This document shows positions 6,731 through 64,000 of a stretch of 64,000 nt of DNA, in pieces. The stretch is taken from NCBI RefSeq assembly GCF_006152115.1, contig NZ_VDFU01000017.1:1-64000 (forward strand), given 5' to 3'. Source of the DNA: Rubellimicrobium rubrum (GTDB taxonomy: Bacteria; Pseudomonadota; Alphaproteobacteria; Rhodobacterales; Rhodobacteraceae). How positions within the stretch are numbered: position 1 is the first letter of the stretch; every line of letters starts with the position of its first letter. Below the pieces are notes generated by a model that was given only the letters and a program-made list of their open reading frames with translations, did no database searches and was not told the DNA's origin. Made by a program: the position numbers and the translations under genes.

Positions 6731-9700
6731 GTGCTGCTCGAAGGAACGGTCAACAACGACAGTCTGGTCGGTGGCATCGGGGACGATCAGATCCTCGGGG
6801 ATGCCGGCGACGATACGCTTTGGGGCGAAGCCGGCCACGACACGCTGATCGGGTACTTGGGCAACGACACGCTGTGGGGCGGCGAGGGGAACGACAATCT
6901 CCAGAGCGGAGAAGGCGCCGACACCGTCCTTGGGGAGGACGGCGACGACTTCATCGATGGCTACATCGGTGACGACTCGCTGTCCGGCGGGACGGGAAAC
7001 GACACTCTGGCCGGCTGGGACGGAGAGGACATCCTTAAGGCGGACGAAGGCGAGGACCTCCTCTTCGGCGGCAGCGATGACGACCATCTGAACGGCGGCA
7101 CCGGCAATGATGAGATCTTCGGAGGGGGCGGGGGCGATGAACTCCTTGGCGGTGACGGAGTTGACTGGCTCCATGGCGACGACGGGGATGATGCGCTGAA
7201 TGGCGGTTTCGGTGATGACATGCTTTTCGGCGGGACCGGAGCCGACGTGATGATTGGCGCCGGTGGGGCCGATCACCTCATCGGTGGCGTGGGTGACGAC
7301 AGGCTGGACGGCGGCACGGACGATGATACCCTTTTTGGCGAGGGTGGCTCCGACAGCGTTTTCGGGAACTCCGGCGCGGATATCGTCTATGGAGGCCTTG
7401 GCGACGATCGCTTCGTGGATGGCGGGGATGGCAACGACCAAGCCTGGGGCCGCTACGGCCACGACACCGTCTTTGGAGGCGCCGGTGACGATCTGGTGTA
7501 TGGCGATGTCGACCCCCTGGGAACCGGAGCGCGGCAGTTCGCCGTGTTCGCCTTTGACGCCAGCGGAGCGGACCTAGCCGGTCCCAGCGGCACCATCACC
7601 GTCCACGACATCAACGGTCCCGTCGTGATGGAAGCAGCAGACGACGACGATCTGTTTCAAGATGTCTCGTCCGAAGGCGGCAGCGATGTGGACGCTTCGG
7701 GGCAGACCTTGGCCTACGGCGTTACGGTGGGCGGCATCACCTACGAGACCGGAACGCCGATCTATGCCGTGTCCCAGAGTTTGGTCGCCAATGCCACCAC
7801 CGGACAGGAGGGGCGAGCCTGGCTGATCCAGTTCGGACTCGACCCGACCGCAAGGGCCTGGGCGTTCGACATCCCCGTGCGGGTGGGTGACCAGATCACT
7901 TGGACGACAGCCCCGGATGCGACCGACACCACCGGCCTGTCCTACGAGGATCTGATCCAGGCCGATGGCAGCACCGCCGTGGGGAACGACACGCTTCATG
8001 GTGGCGATGGTAACGACACGCTCTTCGGTGCCGATGGCCGGGACCGACTGGAGGGGGATGCAGGAAACGACACCCTCTTCGGAGGAGAAGGCAACGACAG
8101 CCTTTCCGGCGGAACCGGCGACGATTGGCTCGATGGGGGCGCGGGGCTGGATGCGGCGGTCTTCGCAGATCCGGTCGCACGCTACGTCATCGAGCCGCTA
8201 GCCGATGGCTCGGTAACCGTGACTGACATGAGCGGTGGCCCGAAAGGCAGTGTCGATACCCTTCTCTCCATCGAGCAGTTGCTTTTTGCCGACGCGATCC
8301 TGAATGCGGACGGATCGGTGGTCAACTCTGCGCCGGTCGTGGGCAAGGTCGCCGACAGAACCTTTGCCGAGGACACGGCCTTCACGTTCACGGTGCCGGC
8401 CTCGACGGATGCCGAAGGAGATGACCTGACCTACGCGGCGAGGCTTGAAGGCGGACAGGACCTACCCTCGTGGCTCAGCTTCGATGCGGCCACCCTCACC
8501 TTCACGGGCACGCCCCCGGCTGATGCTGCCTCTGCCTTGAACATCGAGATCGAGGTCTCGGACGGGGTGTTCAAGTCGTCTGCCACCTTCGGCCTCGTCA
8601 TCGCCGCGGTGAACGACGCCCCTGTGCTGGACGCCATTGCCGACCAGACCCGCGTCGAGGACGCTGGGGCTTGGAGCTTCCAGGTGCCCGCGGCCACGGA
8701 TGTGGACAGCGTAGTGACCTATACGGCCGCCTTGGCCGATGGCGCGGCGCTGCCCTCCTGGCTCGCGTTCAACGCCAGCACGCGGACGTTCTCGGGCACC
8801 CCGCCCAAGGACTTCGCCGGCACAGTGGGCCTGCGCATCACCGCCTCCGACGGGGCACTCTCGGCCAGCCAAAGCTTCAACCTCGTGGTCAGGGGGGTGA
8901 ACGACGCGCCCACAGACCTGAGCCTCGGGACGTCGCTCGTGCGCGAGTTCGCGAGCAACGGCGCCGTAGTGGGCACCCTTTCTGCACAGGACGTGGACTC
9001 GGCCTTGTTCACCTACACGCTGCTCAACAGCGCCGGTGGCCGCTTCACCCTTTCAGGCAACAAGGTCGTGGTGGCCGACGGGCTCCGGCTCGACTTCGAA
9101 CAAAGCGCGTCGCATGTCATCCGAGTCCAAGTCAGCGATGGGCAGGGCGGAGTTCGGACCGAGAGCCTGACCATCAGCGTCACGGATGTCTCGCCCGAGG
9201 TCGTCACCGGGGATGCGCGCGCCAACACCTTTGTCGGTGGCTCGGGCCGCGACGTCCTCGCGGGCCTGGGCGGCAACGACACGCTCCTGGGTGGGGGCGG
9301 GGCGGACCGGCTCGACGGTGGAGTGGGAACGGACCGGCTGGAGGGCGGGGCGGGGAGCGACATCTATGTTCTGGCCGCGGCGGGTGACACTATCGTGGAG
9401 CTGGCCGGGGGCGGGACGGATCAGGTGCAGGCTTCGGTGGGCGTGACGGCTCTGGCCGCCAATGTGGAGAACTTGGTCTTGACTGGCACGTCAGCCCTCA
9501 ACGGTGCGGGCAACGGTCTGGCGAACCGCCTGACGGGGAACGGGGCCGCCAATTCGCTCTCTGGATTGGCGGGCAGCGATGCCCTGCTCGGCGGGGCTGG
9601 GCATGACCGCCTGACAGGGGGCGTGGGCAATGACGTGTTTGTCTTTGCAAGCCGCGCGGAAGCCGGGGACGTCATCACCGACTTCCACAACAACTCGGGC

Positions 9701-9961: not shown

Positions 9962-10599
9962 GGCAACAGGCGCCGGATCGCTCGCGACGCTGCCCAGCGC
10001 CGATGCAGTGCCCCGACTGTTCTTGCTCGGACTTCCCCTCATCCTGCACCGTTGTCTGGAAACCGGATCAATCCCTGTTCCGGCACTATGTCAGGCGCTG
10101 GGCTCTGGGTTCCCCGAGCTTTGGACCGCAATCCACGACCGTGTCCTAGATCCATCCGGACCGGCACGCCCTGACGCAGGAGTTTTCGCCGGCATCGTCG
10201 GGTCCGGTGCCAAATGGGCAAGCTCAACAGGGCCTGAGCTGTGAACGCGCTGATGCGGGTCGACTGTTCGTCGGATGGCCCACCATGGTGTGGAGCAGCA
10301 TAATCCAGGCTCAGAGCATACCCAGGGTCAGCGGCGGCCCAGAGGCGATGCTGTGACATTCACCATCGAAGACTTGCCCTTGGTTGATCGGCCCCTGTCT
10401 CTTTCGCCGTTGGCAGGCTGACGATCAGGGTCAGGGAGGACGGGCGGGCTAGTCCGGAGATCGTCTAACATGCAGGCCTCCCGATCGAGATGCGGCTCTC
10501 ACAAAAAGCACTACCTTGCGGCCTGTGATCATGCCTCCTCGACGGGCAGGGCTGTTTGTCGTCACACTGGACCGTGACAAGGAAAAACCGGAGTAGCCT
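9962..10599. other. Intergenic region before the betaine ABC operon
   Basis: About 640 bases with no supportable gene. It should contain the terminator of the RTX gene and the promoter of the ABC operon, but I could not identify either with confidence. Confidence 0.45.
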
Positions 10600-11508
10600 A
10601 TGCGTCTGACTGCCACGATCCTGAGCGTCGTTGCCGCCATCACCGTGTCCACCACCGCGAACGCCCAAGTGGCGGTTTCGTCCAAGATCGACACCGAAGG
10701 AGGTGTGCTGGGCAACATCATCCTTCAGGTGCTTCAGAATGCGGATATCCCCGTCACGGACCGCATCCAGCTTGGCGGAACGCCCATCGTCCGCGAGGCG
10801 ATCATCGCGGGAGAGATCGACATCTATCCCGAATACACGGGCAATGCGGCCTTCTTCTTCGAGCGTGCGGATGAACCTGTCTGGAACGATCCCGCAAGCG
10901 CCTATGCCGAAGCCGCGCGGCTTGATCTGGAGGCGAACCAGATCGTCTGGCTGACGCCTTCGCCCGCCAACAACACCTGGGGCGTGGCCATCCGTAACGA
11001 TGTGGCGGAAGCCAATGGCCTCAGCACCTTCAGCGACTTTGCCAAGTGGGTGTCCAGCGGAGGGGAGGCCAAGCTCGCCGCATCGGCCGAGTTCGTCAAC
11101 TCTCCGGCGGCCCTGCCGAAGTTCCAGGAGATCTACGGCTTCACCCTGTCGCCCGACCAACTGGTGACCCTGTCTGGCGGCGACACGGCGGCCACGATCG
11201 CGGCTGCGGCCCAGCAGACCAATGGCGTCAACGCCGCCATGGTCTACGGCACCGACGGCGGCATCGCACCGTCCGGATTAACGGTTCTCACGGACGACAA
11301 GGGCGTGCAGCCCATCTACCAGCCAGCGCCGATCATCCGACAGGAGGTGCTCGAGGAGTATCCGCAGATCGAAAACCTGCTCGAGCCGGTGTTCGAGGGA
11401 CTGACCCTTGAAGTGCTGCAGGGGTTGAACGGCCGCGTGCAGGTGGGTGGCGAGGCCGCGGCGACTGTCGCGACCGATTACCTGACGCAGAACGGCTTTC
11501 TGGAATAG
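10600..11508 (+). CDS. osmF: Glycine betaine/choline-type ABC substrate-binding protein (OsmF/YehZ-like)
   Basis: A 302-residue periplasmic binding protein with a signal peptide cleaved near residue 22 (TTANA-Q). The opening VAVSSKIDTEGGVLGNIIL, the segment GEIDIYPEYTGNA and the later ASAEFVNSPAALPKFQEIYGF are characteristic of the OpuAC/OsmF family that binds quaternary amines such as glycine betaine, choline or related osmolytes. In this family the tyrosine in YPEYTGN and nearby aromatic residues form the ligand cage. It is the first gene of a four-gene operon with two permeases and one ATPase, as in the E. coli yehZYXW set. The precise ligand cannot be read from sequence; YehZ-type proteins bind betaine weakly. 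Confidence 0.9.
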   Translation: MRLTATILSVVAAITVSTTANAQVAVSSKIDTEGGVLGNIILQVLQNADIPVTDRIQLGGTPIVREAIIAGEIDIYPEYTGNAAFFFERADEPVWNDPASAYAEAARLDLEANQIVWLTPSPANNTWGVAIRNDVAEANGLSTFSDFAKWVSSGGEAKLAASAEFVNSPAALPKFQEIYGFTLSPDQLVTLSGGDTAATIAAAAQQTNGVNAAMVYGTDGGIAPSGLTVLTDDKGVQPIYQPAPIIRQEVLEEYPQIENLLEPVFEGLTLEVLQGLNGRVQVGGEAAATVATDYLTQNGFLE

Positions 11509-11641: not shown

Positions 11642-12832
11642 ATGAGCGTCGTCCGCACTGCCAAGGCCGCCGGTCGGCCAAACTGGCTCGTGTTCGATAA
11701 GCTCGGGGTGCTGATCGGGGTGATCGCTGCTGCAGGCGTCATGCTTCCTTTTGCCCTGTTCCGGGCCAATCGCATCGTGGCTGGAGAGGGAAGGGGCTTG
11801 GCGGAAGCGCTGCCCAGTGTCGTGTCGGCTGTCCTGATCGGTGCTCTGGTGATTGGCTTCATGGGCGCGCTGTTCCGCGTTGCGCCCTCGGTCAAGCTGG
11901 TGGCGGGGGTTCTCGCTTTGATTGGCCTGGCGATATCGATCGGGTGGTCAGCCCGCTACCTCACGCCCCCGGAGGACACGCTTGCCCGTGTTTCCCCTGC
12001 GGGTGGGTTCTGGCTGCTGGTCCTGGCGTTCGCGCTGCTCGTTGCCGATGCGCTGATCCGGCTGCGGCCAGGGCCCTGGCTCCGTATCACGGCGCTGGTC
12101 ACCGTGGGCGTGGCGGTTGCCTTGTTGCTGTGGAGCGGCACATGGGACGACCTGTCGATCCTCAGGGAATATGCCAATCGTGCCCCGGCCTTCTGGCAGG
12201 AGGCCCGGGCGCATCTGGTTCTGGCGTTCGGGTCGGTGGCGATGGCCGCTTTCGTCGGCGTGCCGATCGGCGTGCTGTGCCACAAGCTGCAGGCTTTCCG
12301 AACCGTCGTGCTCAATGGGCTCAACATCGTCCAGACCATCCCTTCAATCGCGCTGTTCGGCCTGCTGATCGCACCGCTGGCCTGGGTGGCCGCAAACGTG
12401 CCAGGGGCGGCGGCGCTCGGGATATCGGGCATCGGAACAGCGCCCGCCATGGTGGCGCTCTTTGCGTATTCGTTGCTGCCGCTGGTGTCGAACACGGTCG
12501 TGGGCCTTCAGGCCGTGCCGGCCTCGGCCGTCGATGCGGCCAAGGGCATGGGCATGAGCGGCTCACAGCGGTTCTTCGGCATCGAATTACCCTTGGCGTT
12601 TCCCGTGATCCTGACGGGCATCCGCATCGTGCTGGTGCAGAACATCGGACTGGCAACCATCGCCGCCCTGATTGGTGGGGGCGGGTTCGGCGTCTTCGTG
12701 TTCCAGGGCATCGGACAGACGGCGATGGACTTGGTGCTCCTGGGCACCGTGCCAACGGTTGCGCTGTCCTTTGCCGCAGCGGTGGTGCTCGACGCCCTGG
12801 TCGAGCTGAGTTCGGTTCGGAGGCGCCGATGA
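11642..12832 (+). CDS. yehY: Betaine-type ABC transporter permease (YehY-like, long form)
   Basis: A 396-residue integral membrane protein. The N-terminal half has several extra transmembrane segments (about residues 15-200) typical of YehY, and the C-terminal half is the binding-protein-dependent permease domain with the ATPase-contact loop around SAVDAAKGMGMSGSQRFFGIELPLAFP. I place the start at the ATG at 11642 (MSVVRTAKAAG); an in-frame ATG at 11546 would begin inside the intercistronic hairpin. The stop overlaps the ATPase start by ATGA (12829-12832). Together with the second permease it should form the heterodimeric channel of the importer. Confidence 0.88.
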   Translation: MSVVRTAKAAGRPNWLVFDKLGVLIGVIAAAGVMLPFALFRANRIVAGEGRGLAEALPSVVSAVLIGALVIGFMGALFRVAPSVKLVAGVLALIGLAISIGWSARYLTPPEDTLARVSPAGGFWLLVLAFALLVADALIRLRPGPWLRITALVTVGVAVALLLWSGTWDDLSILREYANRAPAFWQEARAHLVLAFGSVAMAAFVGVPIGVLCHKLQAFRTVVLNGLNIVQTIPSIALFGLLIAPLAWVAANVPGAAALGISGIGTAPAMVALFAYSLLPLVSNTVVGLQAVPASAVDAAKGMGMSGSQRFFGIELPLAFPVILTGIRIVLVQNIGLATIAALIGGGGFGVFVFQGIGQTAMDLVLLGTVPTVALSFAAAVVLDALVELSSVRRRR

Positions 12833-59264: not shown

Positions 59265-59274
59265 CCGGGGTCAG
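59261..59274. terminator. Small hairpin spanning both convergent stop codons
   Basis: CTGAC (59261-59265) and GTCAG (59270-59274) form a stem with a CGGG loop that contains the stop codons of the serine hydrolase (59262-59264) and of ino1 (59271-59273). It is too short to be a convincing terminator alone. Confidence 0.3.
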
Positions 59275-60386
59275 ACCTCGCGAATGAAGTCCTCGACCGC
59301 CTGATAGGCGTCGTCGTCGTTCATCTGCCGTGGCGGGTGCTTGCAGAAGAAGGCGGCGGGCGCCTCGATAGGACCGGAAAGGCCGCGGTCGCGCGCGACC
59401 TTGGCGCAACGGATCATGTCGATGGCCACGCCGGCGGAGTTCGGAGAGTCCTCGACCGACAAGCGGACCTCCATGTTCATGGGGACGCCGCCGAACATGG
59501 TGCCTTCGAGCCGGATGAAGGCGACTTTGTTGTCGTTCTGCCAGGGAACATAGTCCGAGGGACCGACATGGATGTTCTCCCAGTCGAGGCGTTGGGCGGC
59601 CACGGCCTGCACGGCCTCGGTCTTGGAGATCTTCTTGGAGGCGAGGCGGTCACGCTCGCGCATGTTGAGGAAGTCGGTGTTGCCGCCGGTGTTGAGCTGG
59701 TAGGTCCGCTCCAGCCGCACGCCACGCTTGGCGAAGAGGTCGGTCAAAACACGGTGGACGATTGTGGCGCCGACCTGCGCCTTGATGTCATCGCCGATGA
59801 TCGGGACGCCCGCGTCGGCGAAGCGCTTGGCCCAGGCGGGGTCGCTGGCAATGAAGACGGGAATGTTGTTGACGAAGGCCACGCCCGCTTCCAGCGCGCA
59901 TTCGGCGTAGAACTCGGTCGCCTTCTGGCTGCCCACGGGCAGGTAGTTCATCAGGACATGGGCACCGGTCTCGCGCAGCGCCTGCACGACCTCCTCCTTG
60001 GAGGGCTCGGGCAGGTCGGACCGGAGGAAGGTCCGGTGCTCCGGCTGCTCGGCCATATGGGGCGCGAAGCCGTCGAGGATCTTGCCCATCCGGACCTTGG
60101 CGCCGGTCTCGGGCACGTCGGCGCAGAAGATCAGGGTGCAGTTGGGACGCTCGAAGATCGCGCGTGACACGTCCTGCCCGATCTTGCGACGGTCGATGTC
60201 CCAGGCCGCCACCACGCGGATATCGCCGGGACGGTAGCCGCCCAGGTCCCAATGCATCAGGCCCGTATGCTCGTTGCGGTCATTGTCGCGGTACATGGCG
60301 ATCCCCTGCACGAGCGAACTCGCGCAGTTGCCGACGCCCACGATGGCGATGTTGATCCCCTCGCGGGTCAGGTGTCCGTCAGGCAT
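59271..60386 (-). CDS. ino1: Myo-inositol-1-phosphate synthase
   Basis: A 371-residue enzyme that converts glucose 6-phosphate to 1D-myo-inositol 3-phosphate using NAD. The dinucleotide site is INIAIVGVGNCASSLVQGI (about 11-29). ALRETGAHVLMNYLPVGSQKATEFYA, IGDDIKAQVGATIVHR, TYQLNTGGNTDFLNM and VGPSDYVPWQNDNKVAF are the conserved regions including catalytic lysines and the NTGGN.D loop. The length (about 370) matches the short bacterial/actinobacterial type, not the 500-residue eukaryotic type. GGAGGGG precedes the ATG at 60386. It begins one base after the GH39-like gene's stop and is the last gene of the operon. Confidence 0.93.
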   Translation of the reverse strand: MPDGHLTREGINIAIVGVGNCASSLVQGIAMYRDNDRNEHTGLMHWDLGGYRPGDIRVVAAWDIDRRKIGQDVSRAIFERPNCTLIFCADVPETGAKVRMGKILDGFAPHMAEQPEHRTFLRSDLPEPSKEEVVQALRETGAHVLMNYLPVGSQKATEFYAECALEAGVAFVNNIPVFIASDPAWAKRFADAGVPIIGDDIKAQVGATIVHRVLTDLFAKRGVRLERTYQLNTGGNTDFLNMRERDRLASKKISKTEAVQAVAAQRLDWENIHVGPSDYVPWQNDNKVAFIRLEGTMFGGVPMNMEVRLSVEDSPNSAGVAIDMIRCAKVARDRGLSGPIEAPAAFFCKHPPRQMNDDDAYQAVEDFIREV

Positions 60387-60387
60387 C

Positions 60388-61314
60388 TCAACCCCTCCCT
60401 GCGGAATGCAGCTTGACCGGCGTCGCCGGCGCGTAACGTTCGACCATGGCGGCGCAGAAGTCGGCGAACTGCTGCGGATCGCGCGGGGGACTCGTGTGGT
60501 GGGGCTCCACACCCAGATGTTCGGGCGTGAAGCAGAAGGTCGCCATCACGTCGAAGTCCTGCAGCGCCTCCATCTGGCGGTCGAACCAGTCGAGAGCGTT
60601 GGGCCGGAAGCTGTCGGCCCAGGACAGGCCCGTCCGCAGGTGCCGCACGCCCAACCGCTTGAGCCAGGCCACGGCGTTGGGCAGGCGTGGGTCCTCGTAG
60701 TGGAACCACTGCATGATCCCCATCCGGTCGGCATAGGGCGCATAGGCCTCAAGGCTCGGCTTTGGGGTCCCGTCCTCGCGGATGAGGCCCATGTAGAAAT
60801 GGCGGTAGTAGCTCGACCCCTCGGCCTCCTTGTGGCGCGTCGTGGCCTCCCACTCGCGTGGCAAGTCGAAGAGGGAGTACCAGTAGGCACGGGGCACGCG
60901 GCCGACGAGCAGTTCGGCGGTCTTCTGGACGCCGAAGACCTGAACCTCCTCGGCGCCGAAGGAGCCCACGCCGACCTCGCTTACCCAGACGGGGTGGTCG
61001 GGGGCCACGGCCTCGATCTCGGCGACCTTGGCGGGCCATTCGCCGATCTGCCACAGATTCCAGTCGAGCGGGAAGCCATGGACCGCTACCACGTCCACAT
61101 TGTCGAGAACGCCCATCCCTTTTAGCCGCAGGATGTAATTCGGGTCGATGGGAGAGATCCCGCCCAGCACCCGCGTCACGTCGGGGTTCACATCCGCAAC
61201 GGCTTGGCCTGCGAGGTTGATCATGGTCGCGAACTGCGACCAGTCCGGGTCGATGGCCGGGTCCCAGTGGGACTTGTTGTTGGGCTCGTTCCAGAACATC
61301 ACGGATTCGATCAT
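60388..61314 (-). CDS. GH39-like protein with circularly permuted TIM barrel
   Basis: A 308-residue protein. It begins straight at MIESVMFWNEPNNKSHWDP, where WNEPN (E10) is the acid/base motif at the end of strand 4 of a clan GH-A barrel. VDVVAVHGFPLDWN (strand 6), HPVWVSEVGVGSFG with nucleophile E113 (strand 7), RAYWYSLFDL (strand 8) and GTPKPSLEAY (usual C-terminal end) follow. Only then, from about residue 201, come WLKRLGVRHLRTGLSWAD (strand 1), FDVMATFCFTPEHLG (strand 3) and FADFCAAMVERYAP, which normally precede WNEPN. The two halves are thus swapped. The start overlaps the methyltransferase stop by ATGA (61311-61314), and the frame above it runs within that gene. No signal peptide, so it acts in the cytoplasm. 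Confidence 0.82.
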   Translation of the reverse strand: MIESVMFWNEPNNKSHWDPAIDPDWSQFATMINLAGQAVADVNPDVTRVLGGISPIDPNYILRLKGMGVLDNVDVVAVHGFPLDWNLWQIGEWPAKVAEIEAVAPDHPVWVSEVGVGSFGAEEVQVFGVQKTAELLVGRVPRAYWYSLFDLPREWEATTRHKEAEGSSYYRHFYMGLIREDGTPKPSLEAYAPYADRMGIMQWFHYEDPRLPNAVAWLKRLGVRHLRTGLSWADSFRPNALDWFDRQMEALQDFDVMATFCFTPEHLGVEPHHTSPPRDPQQFADFCAAMVERYAPATPVKLHSAGRG

Positions 61315-62087
61315 CGCGGCCCCCTCGCCGGATAGGCCGCGCCCGCGCCCCATTGCGAATAGGGCACCTCCGCGCGGCGGCAGATATAGACGTCCTCGGA
61401 GGCGCGGGTCTCGATGCTGAAGCCCGCCGCCCTCAGCATGGCCTCGACCCCGGCGCGGTTCGGGGCCCACCAGTTGGTCCAGTCGTCGGCATAAAGGTGC
61501 TCGATGAAGTACATGGCGGGATAACCGGTCGCCTCGAACATGGCCTCCTCGGAAAATGGGGCCTCCTTCGGCACTTCCATGACCTCCTCGGGCCCGCGCA
61601 GGAGCGATTGGAAGATCATCATGTCACCCGCGACATGCTCCCGGATCAGGTCGAGCGCGAGGAGGGGGTGCCGCAGATGGTAAAGCACGCCCATGAAGAT
61701 GACGACGTCGAAGCGTTCGCCCAGCGCGCCCACGTCATAGACCTCGAGCTGCCGGAACTCGATGTCCATGCCCTCCACCTCGGCGGCAAGGCGGGCCTGC
61801 CGAAGGTAGTGCTCGTCATGGTCGATCCCGAGCACGCGCGACGCCCCGCGGCGCTTCATTTCCAAGGCGTAGAACCCGGCGTTGCAGCCGATGTCGAGCA
61901 CGGACTTGCCGCTCAGGTCCTCCGGGATCGCATGGGCGAAGCGTTCGAACTTGGTCCGGGGAAAGTCGCCCAGGAAGTGACCCGGCGCCGTCTCGATGCC
62001 GCCGAGACGCAGGTTGTGAAACCAAGGGCCCAGGGCCTCGATGCGGCGGGCAAGATCGTCGTCGCCAGGGTCAGGCACGTCCTTCAT
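61311..62087 (-). CDS. SAM-dependent methyltransferase
   Basis: A 258-residue class I methyltransferase. The N-terminal segment PWFHNLRLGGIETAPGHFLGDFPRTKFERF resembles CmoB-related enzymes. The SAM site is SVLDIGCNAGFYALEM (62-77), with IDHDEHYLRQAR for the acidic loop and FDVVIFMGVLYHLRHPLLALD as motif IV. The C-terminal part (MYFIEHLYADDWTNWWAPN) is family-specific. From memory it matches a TIGRFAM family named after a Ramlibacter protein (Rta_06860), found in conserved sugar-like clusters. The acceptor is unknown; an inositol glycoside or glycan is likely by context. It overlaps both neighbours by ATGA. Confidence 0.85.
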   Translation of the reverse strand: MKDVPDPGDDDLARRIEALGPWFHNLRLGGIETAPGHFLGDFPRTKFERFAHAIPEDLSGKSVLDIGCNAGFYALEMKRRGASRVLGIDHDEHYLRQARLAAEVEGMDIEFRQLEVYDVGALGERFDVVIFMGVLYHLRHPLLALDLIREHVAGDMMIFQSLLRGPEEVMEVPKEAPFSEEAMFEATGYPAMYFIEHLYADDWTNWWAPNRAGVEAMLRAAGFSIETRASEDVYICRRAEVPYSQWGAGAAYPARGPR

Positions 62088-62755
62088 GCAGTCATTCCAG
62101 TGGTTTCATTGAGGGAAAGCACCCGCGCGCCCCAGGGCCCAGCCTCCAGGCGGCTGACGGAGGCCGGGCCGATCTCGAAGCGCAGGATGTTGTCAAAGGA
62201 CAGGCCCAGCACCCGGGCCACAAGGGCGCGGATCATGTCGCAATGGGTGACCAGAGCGATCCGCCCGCCGGTGCCCGACGCAGCAAGGGCGTCCACATGC
62301 CGGGCGATGCGGCCGGCGGCCTCGTCCATGCTCTCGCCGCTGGGGATGCGGACCAGGGCGCGGCGGGTGTTCCAGTCGTCCCAAAGGGGCTGGCCATTCA
62401 GGGCGGCGAACTCCGCCCCGGTCCAGTCGCCGAAGTCGATCTCGTCCAGCGCATCCACTACCGTGACGGATGCGCCGCTGGCCCGGGCCACGGCCTCGGC
62501 GGTCGCGCGGGCACGCTCGCGCGGGCTGGTCTGGATCTCGGTCAGCGCTTCGGGGGCAAGGCGGCGTCCCAGGACGGCAGCCTGCCGCTCGCCCTCGGGG
62601 GTCAGGGGAACGCCCGGGGCCCGGCCGGTAAGCCTACGCCCGAAATCCGCATGGGTGGCATGGCGGAGCAGGTACAGTTGGACGTTGATCGCGGTGCCCC
62701 CGGACGCTTCTACATTCGTTGGGGTACAAACGCTCGCGAGGCCGTGAGGTTCCAT
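62084..62755 (-). CDS. Histidine phosphatase family protein
   Basis: A 223-residue phosphatase with the catalytic motif LYLLRHATHADFGRRLTG (R31, H32). Further features are TSPRERARATAEAVA, EIDFGDWTG and VTHCDMIRALVARVLG, which carries the second catalytic histidine. Members act on sugar phosphates, phosphoglycerate, cobalamin intermediates and others. In this operon it may remove the phosphate from inositol phosphate or from a glycosylated inositol phosphate. The only conventional start is the ATG at 62755; the first 25 residues are not part of the fold. It overlaps the methyltransferase gene by ATGA (62084-62087). Confidence 0.87.
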   Translation of the reverse strand: MEPHGLASVCTPTNVEASGGTAINVQLYLLRHATHADFGRRLTGRAPGVPLTPEGERQAAVLGRRLAPEALTEIQTSPRERARATAEAVARASGASVTVVDALDEIDFGDWTGAEFAALNGQPLWDDWNTRRALVRIPSGESMDEAAGRIARHVDALAASGTGGRIALVTHCDMIRALVARVLGLSFDNILRFEIGPASVSRLEAGPWGARVLSLNETTGMTA

Positions 62756-62787: not shown

Positions 62788-63813
62788 TCAGCCCGCCAGT
62801 TCGGCGTAGCGTTCGAGGTAGCGGGCCACCATGCGCTGAGCCGAGAAGCGTGCCCGTGCCGTTGCCCGGCAGACCTCGGGATCGATCCGATCGATGCGGC
62901 GCATGGCATCCGCGAGGCCGTTCACGCTCTCCACCAGGAACCCGGTGCGTCCATCCTCCACGATCTCGGTCAGAGCGCCACTGGGATAGGCGATGACCGG
63001 GGTTCCTGCGGCCATGGCCTCCATGGCAACTAGGGATGACGTTTCGCGCGCCTTGCTGGGGATCAGCACGCAGCGGGCCGCAGCTAGAAGCTGCTGCTTG
63101 CAGCGCCCTTCGACAGCGCCGATCCAGCGGCGGCGCCAGCCCAGATGCGGCTCGACTGCCTCGTGGAAGTGCCGCTGATGGTCGGGGTAGGGGAACACGG
63201 TACCGGCGATCAACAGCGGCACATGGGCCATCTCGGCCGAAGCCAGCGCGTCATCGAAACCCTTCTCGGGGCAGATGCGGCCCAGGGCAAACGCGAAGCT
63301 CCGCCTGCGGACCTTCAGGTCGGGGATCTCCACGCCATTCTCGATGGGAGCCTCGATCCGTGCGCCTGTCGGAGCCGTCGCCGCCTGCGCCGCCGAGACC
63401 GGATGGAGATGGGTGCGCGACCGGGCCGAGCACAGGGCATCGGGCGGATACCAGTCGAGCGGCAGGTGGAGAGTCACCAGCACCGGCGGGCCGCTGGGCG
63501 GCAGGTAGCGGTGGAAATCGATCCCGTGCAGGTGAATCACATCCAGCCGGTCGCGCGTCATCGCCTCGGCGATCCGGTCGCGGACGGCAGCGCGCACATG
63601 CTCCGCCTCGGTGTCGGAGATCGGGCCCGCAATCGCCGGAACGGACCGCAACTCGCCTGCCACGCGGGACCCCTCGGGCGCGATCACGATGGAGCGGTGA
63701 CCGGCCGCTACCAGGGCCCGGTCGAGCCGGGACAGCACCTGCTCGGCTCCGCCCACTGGATCGGCAGTCACGGGGGCGAGCGGATAGGACACGCTCAGGA
63801 CCGTCAGGGTCAC
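62788..63813 (-). CDS. Glycosyltransferase, GT4 family
   Basis: A 341-residue retaining glycosyltransferase of the GT-B fold. The N-terminal VLSVSYPLAPVTADPVGGAEQVLSRL is the donor/acceptor cleft loop with GGAEQ. VIHLHGIDFHRY follows, and the C-terminal FALGRICPEKGFDDAL with SLVAMEAMAAGTPVIAYPSGALTEIVEDGRTGFLV is the nucleotide-sugar site (ETSSLVAMEA for E-x7-E). It starts at GTG overlapping the previous stop (GTGA, 63810-63813). Inositol-phosphate glycosyltransferases such as MshA belong to the same large family, so an inositol acceptor is plausible next to ino1, but not provable from sequence. Confidence 0.88.
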   Translation of the reverse strand: MTLTVLSVSYPLAPVTADPVGGAEQVLSRLDRALVAAGHRSIVIAPEGSRVAGELRSVPAIAGPISDTEAEHVRAAVRDRIAEAMTRDRLDVIHLHGIDFHRYLPPSGPPVLVTLHLPLDWYPPDALCSARSRTHLHPVSAAQAATAPTGARIEAPIENGVEIPDLKVRRRSFAFALGRICPEKGFDDALASAEMAHVPLLIAGTVFPYPDHQRHFHEAVEPHLGWRRRWIGAVEGRCKQQLLAAARCVLIPSKARETSSLVAMEAMAAGTPVIAYPSGALTEIVEDGRTGFLVESVNGLADAMRRIDRIDPEVCRATARARFSAQRMVARYLERYAELAG

Positions 63814-64000
63814 GGCGACGCCTGATCCAGCAGTGTGTCCGCATGGCGCCTCCACTCGGTCAGGGTCATGTTCCAGCCCCAACCGTCGTACAAGGCCGAC
63901 CCCGGGGGGGCCGGCGCGCGGAAATCATAGGCTGGTGCGGGCCGCAGCCATTCCTCCCAGTGCGGAACCTGGTTCAGGAAGCCCATCTGACTTTCGAAGC
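63810..64000 (-). CDS. C-terminus of an unrecognised protein (runs off the window)
   Basis: A continuous minus-strand frame from the window edge to a TGA at 63810-63812, about 62 residues, ending YDGWGWNMTLTEWRRHADTL then LDQASP. It is rich in W, P and Y. I do not recognise the family from this end alone. The GTGA overlap with the glycosyltransferase start supports that it is a real gene of the same operon. Confidence 0.6.
   Translation of the reverse strand, partial: FESQMGFLNQVPHWEEWLRPAPAYDFRAPAPPGSALYDGWGWNMTLTEWRRHADTLLDQASP

Follow-up and report, generated by a model that had tools for sequence, protein, structure and literature searches.

The window analyzed here (the whole stretch of 64,000 nucleotides from the Rubellimicrobium rubrum contig NZ_VDFU01000017.1) encodes a 308-residue protein which, by sequence and predicted structure together, is a natural circular permutation of the clan GH-A (β/α)8 barrel of glycoside hydrolases (GH). 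The permuted GH defines an alphaproteobacterial family and has a common ancestor with a normal-order barrel, found in other Alphaproteobacteria as the N-terminal domain of a fusion with an NAD-dependent epimerase. Taken as one joint claim, this shared ancestry and the place of the permuted barrel in a gene cluster of the TIGR04290 type appear highly probable to us. The minus strand carries the gene, a point that the sequence-only reading left unstated while giving the coordinates correctly; the layout is as follows:

60388..61314, minus strand: gene for the circularly permuted clan GH-A glycosidase-like protein of 308 aa (translation, family search, permutation matches and model)
60739..61314, minus strand: residues 1-192, β4-β8, the C-terminal half in normal order (model; matches to PslG 156-356 and to normal-order residues 117-293)
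60421..60738, minus strand: residues 193-298, β1-β3 and α3, the N-terminal half in normal order (matches to PslG and a normal-order relative)
60391..60420, minus strand: residues 299-308, variable low-confidence C-terminal tail (tails vary among relatives; pLDDT <50 for 301-307)
61285..61287, minus strand: codon of E10, acid/base candidate in WNEPN (invariant in 37/37; aligns with NE of normal-order relatives)
60976..60978, minus strand: codon of E113, nucleophile candidate in VSEVG (invariant in 37/37; corresponds to the WITEAG glutamate of normal-order relatives)

The translation of 60388-61314(-) reads MIESVMFWNEPNN...VWVSEVG...DGTPKPSLEAY...WLKRLGVRHLRTGLSW...FDVMATFCFTPEHLG...MVERYA... 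(308 aa), with WNEPN at residues 8-12, VWVSEVG at 109-115, DGTPKPSLEAY at 181-191, RTGLSW at 227-232 and MVERYA at 290-295; the motif order originally reported is thus directly visible. Scanning species genomes yielded 348 relatives, and 80 of them were kept (72-89% identity over ~296 residues). The sequence-only reading had asked whether homologues share this order, and all 80 do, with the WNEPNNKSHW and RTGLSW motifs present at every locus. Thus, the permuted order is fixed across the family and an assembly error is excluded. The C-terminal tails past RYAP differ in both sequence and length between relatives.

At the sequence level, the permutation is indicated by two segments that match a single homologue in swapped order and become collinear after rotation, the criterion for circular permutation. 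Normal-order homologues were found by a genome search with the permuted-family profile, and BLAST aligns query residues 198-295 with residues 11-110, and 7-185 with 118-293, of the same normal-order protein, the two matches having 30.9% and 33% identity, 84 and 54 bits and E-values of 3e-23 and 6e-13. When the query is rotated at residue 192, the two matches merge into one alignment of 128 bits (E 1.3e-39); identity to normal-order homologues is about 31% after rotation. In genome G159, the match to query 197-297 (8476-8784) is followed in the same frame by the match to 6-185 (8797-9327). Whether the rotation scan uses the single sequence or the family profile, the best cut falls near 190-197 in nearly all normal-order proteins; the family profile peaks close to this position in outgroups as well. 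Scored separately against normal-order relatives, the C-terminal and N-terminal segments reach 45 and 93.5 bits, whereas shuffled copies do not exceed 9.5 and 4.0.

PslG of Pseudomonas aeruginosa (GH39; PDB 5bx9, 4zn2), likewise a clan GH-A barrel, gives the best sequence match across the two halves and is also the closest homologue of known structure to each of them. In a phmmer search of the PDB, one PslG chain is hit by query 195-295 at 18-129 and by query 6-187 at 135-321, again in swapped order. A native-order profile matches PslG over 3-155 only (31 bits), whereas a profile mixing un-permuted and normal-order sequences matches it collinearly over 9-265 (46 bits, E 3.6e-11), and also detects GH39 xylosidases (about 1e-4) and beta-glucosidases.

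The sequence-only reading had inferred a permuted fold and proposed that structure prediction should yield a single closed eight-strand barrel, which is what AlphaFold2 predicts (pLDDT 87, pTM 0.87). The model strands span residues 4-7, 47-53, 75-80, 109-114, 143-146, 199-201, 225-231 and 255-261, with helices between them, and confidence is low for residues 160-167 and in the tail. According to the model, the chain order is β4-α4-β5-β6-β7-β8-α8-β1-α1-β2-α2-β3-α3: the original chain ends are linked near residue 192, and the chain now opens between α3 and β4. Superposition on PslG half by half served as the permutation-aware comparison. With a sequential aligner, model residues 1-196 superpose on PslG chain residues 156-356 (2.2 Å, 22% identity), and residues 190-300, predicted alone, superpose on 42-156 (3.2 Å, 22% identity over 103 residues), so that the two halves tile PslG in swapped order, in support of the inferred fold. 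Structural matches of the C-terminal half include the N-terminal halves of GH1, GH5 and GH164 enzymes. Because this half alone gives no confident Foldseek match (best E 0.045) and a modest VIA Z (5.9 for PslG in the second row, under Bgl6, a beta-glucosidase), its structural match counts as supporting evidence only. Comparison of the whole model was misleading, since a rotated barrel superposes on any barrel and homology is visible half by half only; its top rows were unrelated TIM barrels aligned end to end (Z about 12-14, 3.4-4.5 Å, 5-12% identity). As modeled, the permutation leaves a single closed domain with its fold unchanged.

The permuted GH gene is embedded in an operon, in which its neighbors are:

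61311..62087, minus strand: TIGR04290-family methyltransferase gene, ATGA overlap with the GH start (369.8 bits against a cut-off of 300)
62084..62755, minus strand: histidine phosphatase gene, longest ORF, true start probably further in (Pfam His_Phos_1, E 1e-45)
59271..60386, minus strand: inositol-3-phosphate synthase-like gene, directly downstream (Pfam Inos-1-P_synth, E 4e-37; 454.7 bits with TIGR03450, under its cut-off of 638)
62788..63882, minus strand: GT4-type glycosyltransferase gene, same operon (Pfam Glyco_trans_1_4, E 6e-19)

In this genome, the operon comprises genes for a CgeB-like glycosyltransferase, a nucleotidyltransferase, a PIG-L deacetylase, the GT4 enzyme, the histidine phosphatase, the TIGR04290 methyltransferase, the permuted GH and the inositol-phosphate synthase; the deacetylase and nucleotidyltransferase genes are at 7810-9351(-) of locus L116. 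We take the PIG-L, nucleotidyltransferase, inositol-phosphate synthase and GT4 proteins to resemble the MshA/MshB steps of mycothiol synthesis. Among 86 compared loci with a GH match, 82 encode the TIGR04290 methyltransferase, which the permuted gene usually follows, and 65 of the compared loci encode the histidine phosphatase. The permuted GH is often found beside inositol-phosphate synthase and histidine phosphatase, and the synthase is absent from several Sphingomonas loci. Other genes that adjoin it elsewhere encode two epimerases, four glycosyltransferases, inositol-dehydrogenase-like enzymes, UDP-glucuronate decarboxylase and, sometimes, a TIGR04295 radical SAM protein. On contig 24 of the same genome, EpiA-EpiB-GT4-GTb-GTc-GTd form a second cluster together with a zinc dehydrogenase gene (L160, 5860-12363). 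Because genes of this kind adjoin the permuted-GH operon in other genera, the pathway is apparently split over two places in this genome. On pSymB of Sinorhizobium meliloti, a species well suited to laboratory work (L138, 1-8000 and 12230-14963), the permuted GH gene stands behind those for inositol-phosphate synthase and histidine phosphatase, not behind the methyltransferase gene. We found no paper on TIGR04290 or TIGR04295 in a search largely confined to journals outside subscription, and nothing on the permuted-GH cluster in the S. meliloti papers looked up.

Upstream of the GH gene, there is a promoter-like site of the type GGAAC-N16/17-CGTT, which we take to be the EcfG general-stress consensus:

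62729..62753, minus strand: EcfG-type promoter-like site (GGAAC-N16-CGTT) on the 5' margin of the phosphatase ORF, with sites in the corresponding position in Rubellimicrobium loci L001-L004

The 20 kb around the operon contain four such sites, compared with 0.42 expected for spacings of 15-18, and none of 200 shuffles reaches four. The others, at 10499-10523(-), 11021-11046(+) and 12636-12660(-) of L116, are before the first glycosyltransferase gene of the operon and in or near an SDR gene and a DUF892 gene. Across the 80 loci, 39 EcfG-like sites were observed against 13.2 expected; they cluster just 5' of the first operon gene in Rubellimicrobium, many Sphingomonas and Microvirga, and many of the loci have none. 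These sites make induction of the operon by the general stress response probable in the window's genome.

With respect to catalysis, the sequence-only reading held that both catalytic glutamates are kept, and E10 and E113 are indeed invariant in all 37 aligned family members. In an alignment of both forms, the invariant positions are NE of WNEPNN, the Glu of SEVG/TEAG, the Arg of LRT, the His of HGFP and the Trp of WYS/WYA, which presumably represent the clan GH-A acid/base, nucleophile, β2 (R), β6 (H) and β8 (W) residues. In the model, N9-E10 directly follows strand 4-7 (β4) and E113 ends strand 109-114 (β7), so that the predicted structure has the clan GH-A layout, with NE at the end of β4 and the nucleophile Glu at the end of β7. 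The earlier label "GH39-like" stands insofar as the nearest characterized relative is PslG, but not as a family assignment: Pfam GH39 (PF01229) does not match the window protein in native or un-permuted order (one relative reaches 13.4 bits against a cut-off of 26), and collinear similarity to characterized GH39 enzymes is significant with the mixed un-permuted and normal-order profile only. Pfam GH53 (PF07745) likewise stays below its cut-off of 24 (11.3 bits native, 12.8 un-permuted), and no Pfam or NCBIfam model scores above threshold for the 308-aa protein. Since no Pfam GH39 threshold is passed, "unclassified clan GH-A family" is the better name.

We propose that the permuted GH would be a cytosolic retaining beta-glycosidase or transglycosidase, with E10 as the acid/base and E113 as the nucleophile, that would act on a glycosyl-inositol or oligosaccharide intermediate produced by the operon, on which it may trim, proofread or transfer a sugar. 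That it is an active enzyme of an oligosaccharide or glycosyl-inositol assembly pathway is likely; that the substrate contains inositol, as the neighbor genes would suggest, is a more tentative notion that we rather doubt, given that these neighbors vary. A permuted but catalytically dead barrel, serving as a sugar binder or as a scaffold for the methyltransferase, would account for the overlap with the methyltransferase gene, whose open frame ends on ATGA in 69 of the 80 loci, and for the presence of a hydrolase in a biosynthetic setting, where none is expected; this option is unlikely in view of the invariance, in the permuted set, of E10, E113, R (β2), H (β6) and W (β8), all common to the normal-order form. 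Slightly less plausible still is a catabolic beta-xylosidase, the function assigned in Azospirillum and Sinorhizobium records and seemingly in line with the un-permuted similarity to GH39 xylosidases: the protein begins right at β4, leaving no room for a signal peptide, and its neighbors are biosynthetic (glycosyltransferases, epimerases, nucleotidyltransferase, methyltransferase) rather than transporters or enzymes of sugar catabolism.

The normal-order GH is fused in front of the second, NAD-dependent epimerase of the cluster, and where the GH is permuted, that epimerase stands alone. The fusion (Rhizobium leguminosarum WP_012760324.1 and Tistrella mobilis) has the same barrel, catalytic residues and gene cluster as the permuted form; it differs in that the barrel is the N-terminal domain of a protein of ~680 residues and is not encoded downstream of the methyltransferase gene. 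In a class sample of 289 genomes, 14 have TIGR04290; 12 of these 14, and no others, have the GH, and in the remaining two, contigs end inside the cluster. In a phylum sample of 398 genomes, GH and TIGR04290 occur in the same 14, besides three distant partial matches in other classes. Combined, the GH is found in 24 of the 26 TIGR04290 genomes among 685 sampled (the two exceptions being those cut at contig edges), and, apart from the three partial matches, in no sampled genome that lacks TIGR04290. Because the two forms occupy clusters of one type, a genome has one or the other as a rule: nearly every GH genome shows a single form, G277 having the permuted one plus a weak partial match elsewhere. 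In a plasmid collection, 98 records have the permuted and 50 the normal-order form, out of 146, so that at least two records carry both forms. Moreover, the forms replace each other between related genera, such as Sinorhizobium (permuted; on S. meliloti pSymB annotated "beta-xylosidase") and Rhizobium (normal order; R. leguminosarum pR132503, named epimerase only).

A branch with full support sets the normal-order forms apart in the GH tree, and the epimerase tree separates fused from stand-alone proteins with support of 70/66. Among the loci listed, the region upstream of the stand-alone epimerase showed no GH remnant. Most simply, the change went from normal order to permuted, and the tree agrees with a single event; the outgroups are so distant that the tree leaves the direction (normal to permuted, fusion before fission) unproven. 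To our knowledge, all other GH-A enzymes have normal strand order. A fuller scenario, which we offer as a possibility and lean only slightly against, is that this permuted clan GH-A barrel, a kind absent from the papers searched, arose once by leaving the GH::epimerase fusion and was re-seated behind the methyltransferase gene, and that it now stands in for the fusion in one and the same stress-induced pathway for a glycosyl-inositol or oligosaccharide. TIM barrels can in principle recombine by halves, which lends some credence to a chance fusion of two half-barrels with separate origins, but the two halves here are closest to the two halves of one and the same normal-order protein and, after rotation, match it collinearly (E 1e-39) with a sharp best cut point, making such a fusion very improbable.

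The sequence-only reading had also argued that the start codon is fixed by an ATGA overlap and that no N-terminus is missing. The overlap is that with the methyltransferase gene, 61311-62087(-), and the start has the form [M/V/L]-I-E/D-(A/S)-(A/V)-M-x-WNEPNN in all 80 homologues, small variants aside, with an in-frame stop 1 codon upstream in locus L023 and 5 codons upstream in L027 and L066. Although the frame of the window gene is open upstream as far as a GTG at 61470 (which would give 360 aa), a truncated or mis-annotated ordinary GH-A enzyme, with its true N-terminal half upstream and an unrelated C-terminal segment, is refuted with barely any residual doubt, because the start is at the same codon position in 80/80 homologues, some with stops 1-5 codons before it, the upstream extension is not conserved and falls within methyltransferase coding sequence in another frame, and the C-terminal segment itself matches the supposedly missing normal N-terminal half.

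The fold and the catalytic machinery of the permuted GH are already known, and the connectivity alone is new. PslG, likewise encoded in a polysaccharide biosynthesis operon (PMC10485009), differs in its normal strand order, its periplasmic, membrane-anchored location and an identity of about 22% to the permuted GH. Naturally permuted (beta/alpha)8 barrels with non-permuted relatives are found in GH70 glucansucrases and 4,6-alpha-glucanotransferases (PMC4919382, PMC9732880), which, in contrast, belong to clan GH-H, act in alpha-glucan chemistry and are large extracellular multidomain enzymes. Other natural circular permutations in carbohydrate-active enzymes are MalS (GH13_19) and the CE4 domain of PgaB (PMC10223318, PMC13366581); in MalS it is the domain order that is permuted (C-A-B-A-C), and the PgaB domain is a (beta/alpha)7 esterase. 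We found no publication on the permuted GH family, and none joining clan GH-A or PslG with permutation in a search with most subscription journals outside its scope.

Natural circular permutation is rare among catalytic TIM barrels, and the glycosidase cases found are alpha-glucan enzymes (GH70, MalS). Given that both forms are extant, keep the catalytic residues and reside in the same type of cluster, complementation could test whether the chain order of the barrel matters. Furthermore, the permutation explains why annotation pipelines label these proteins "beta-xylosidase", "glycosyl hydrolase" or "hypothetical", and the permuted GH provides a marker enzyme for a pathway found widely among Alphaproteobacteria, S. 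meliloti being one of them.
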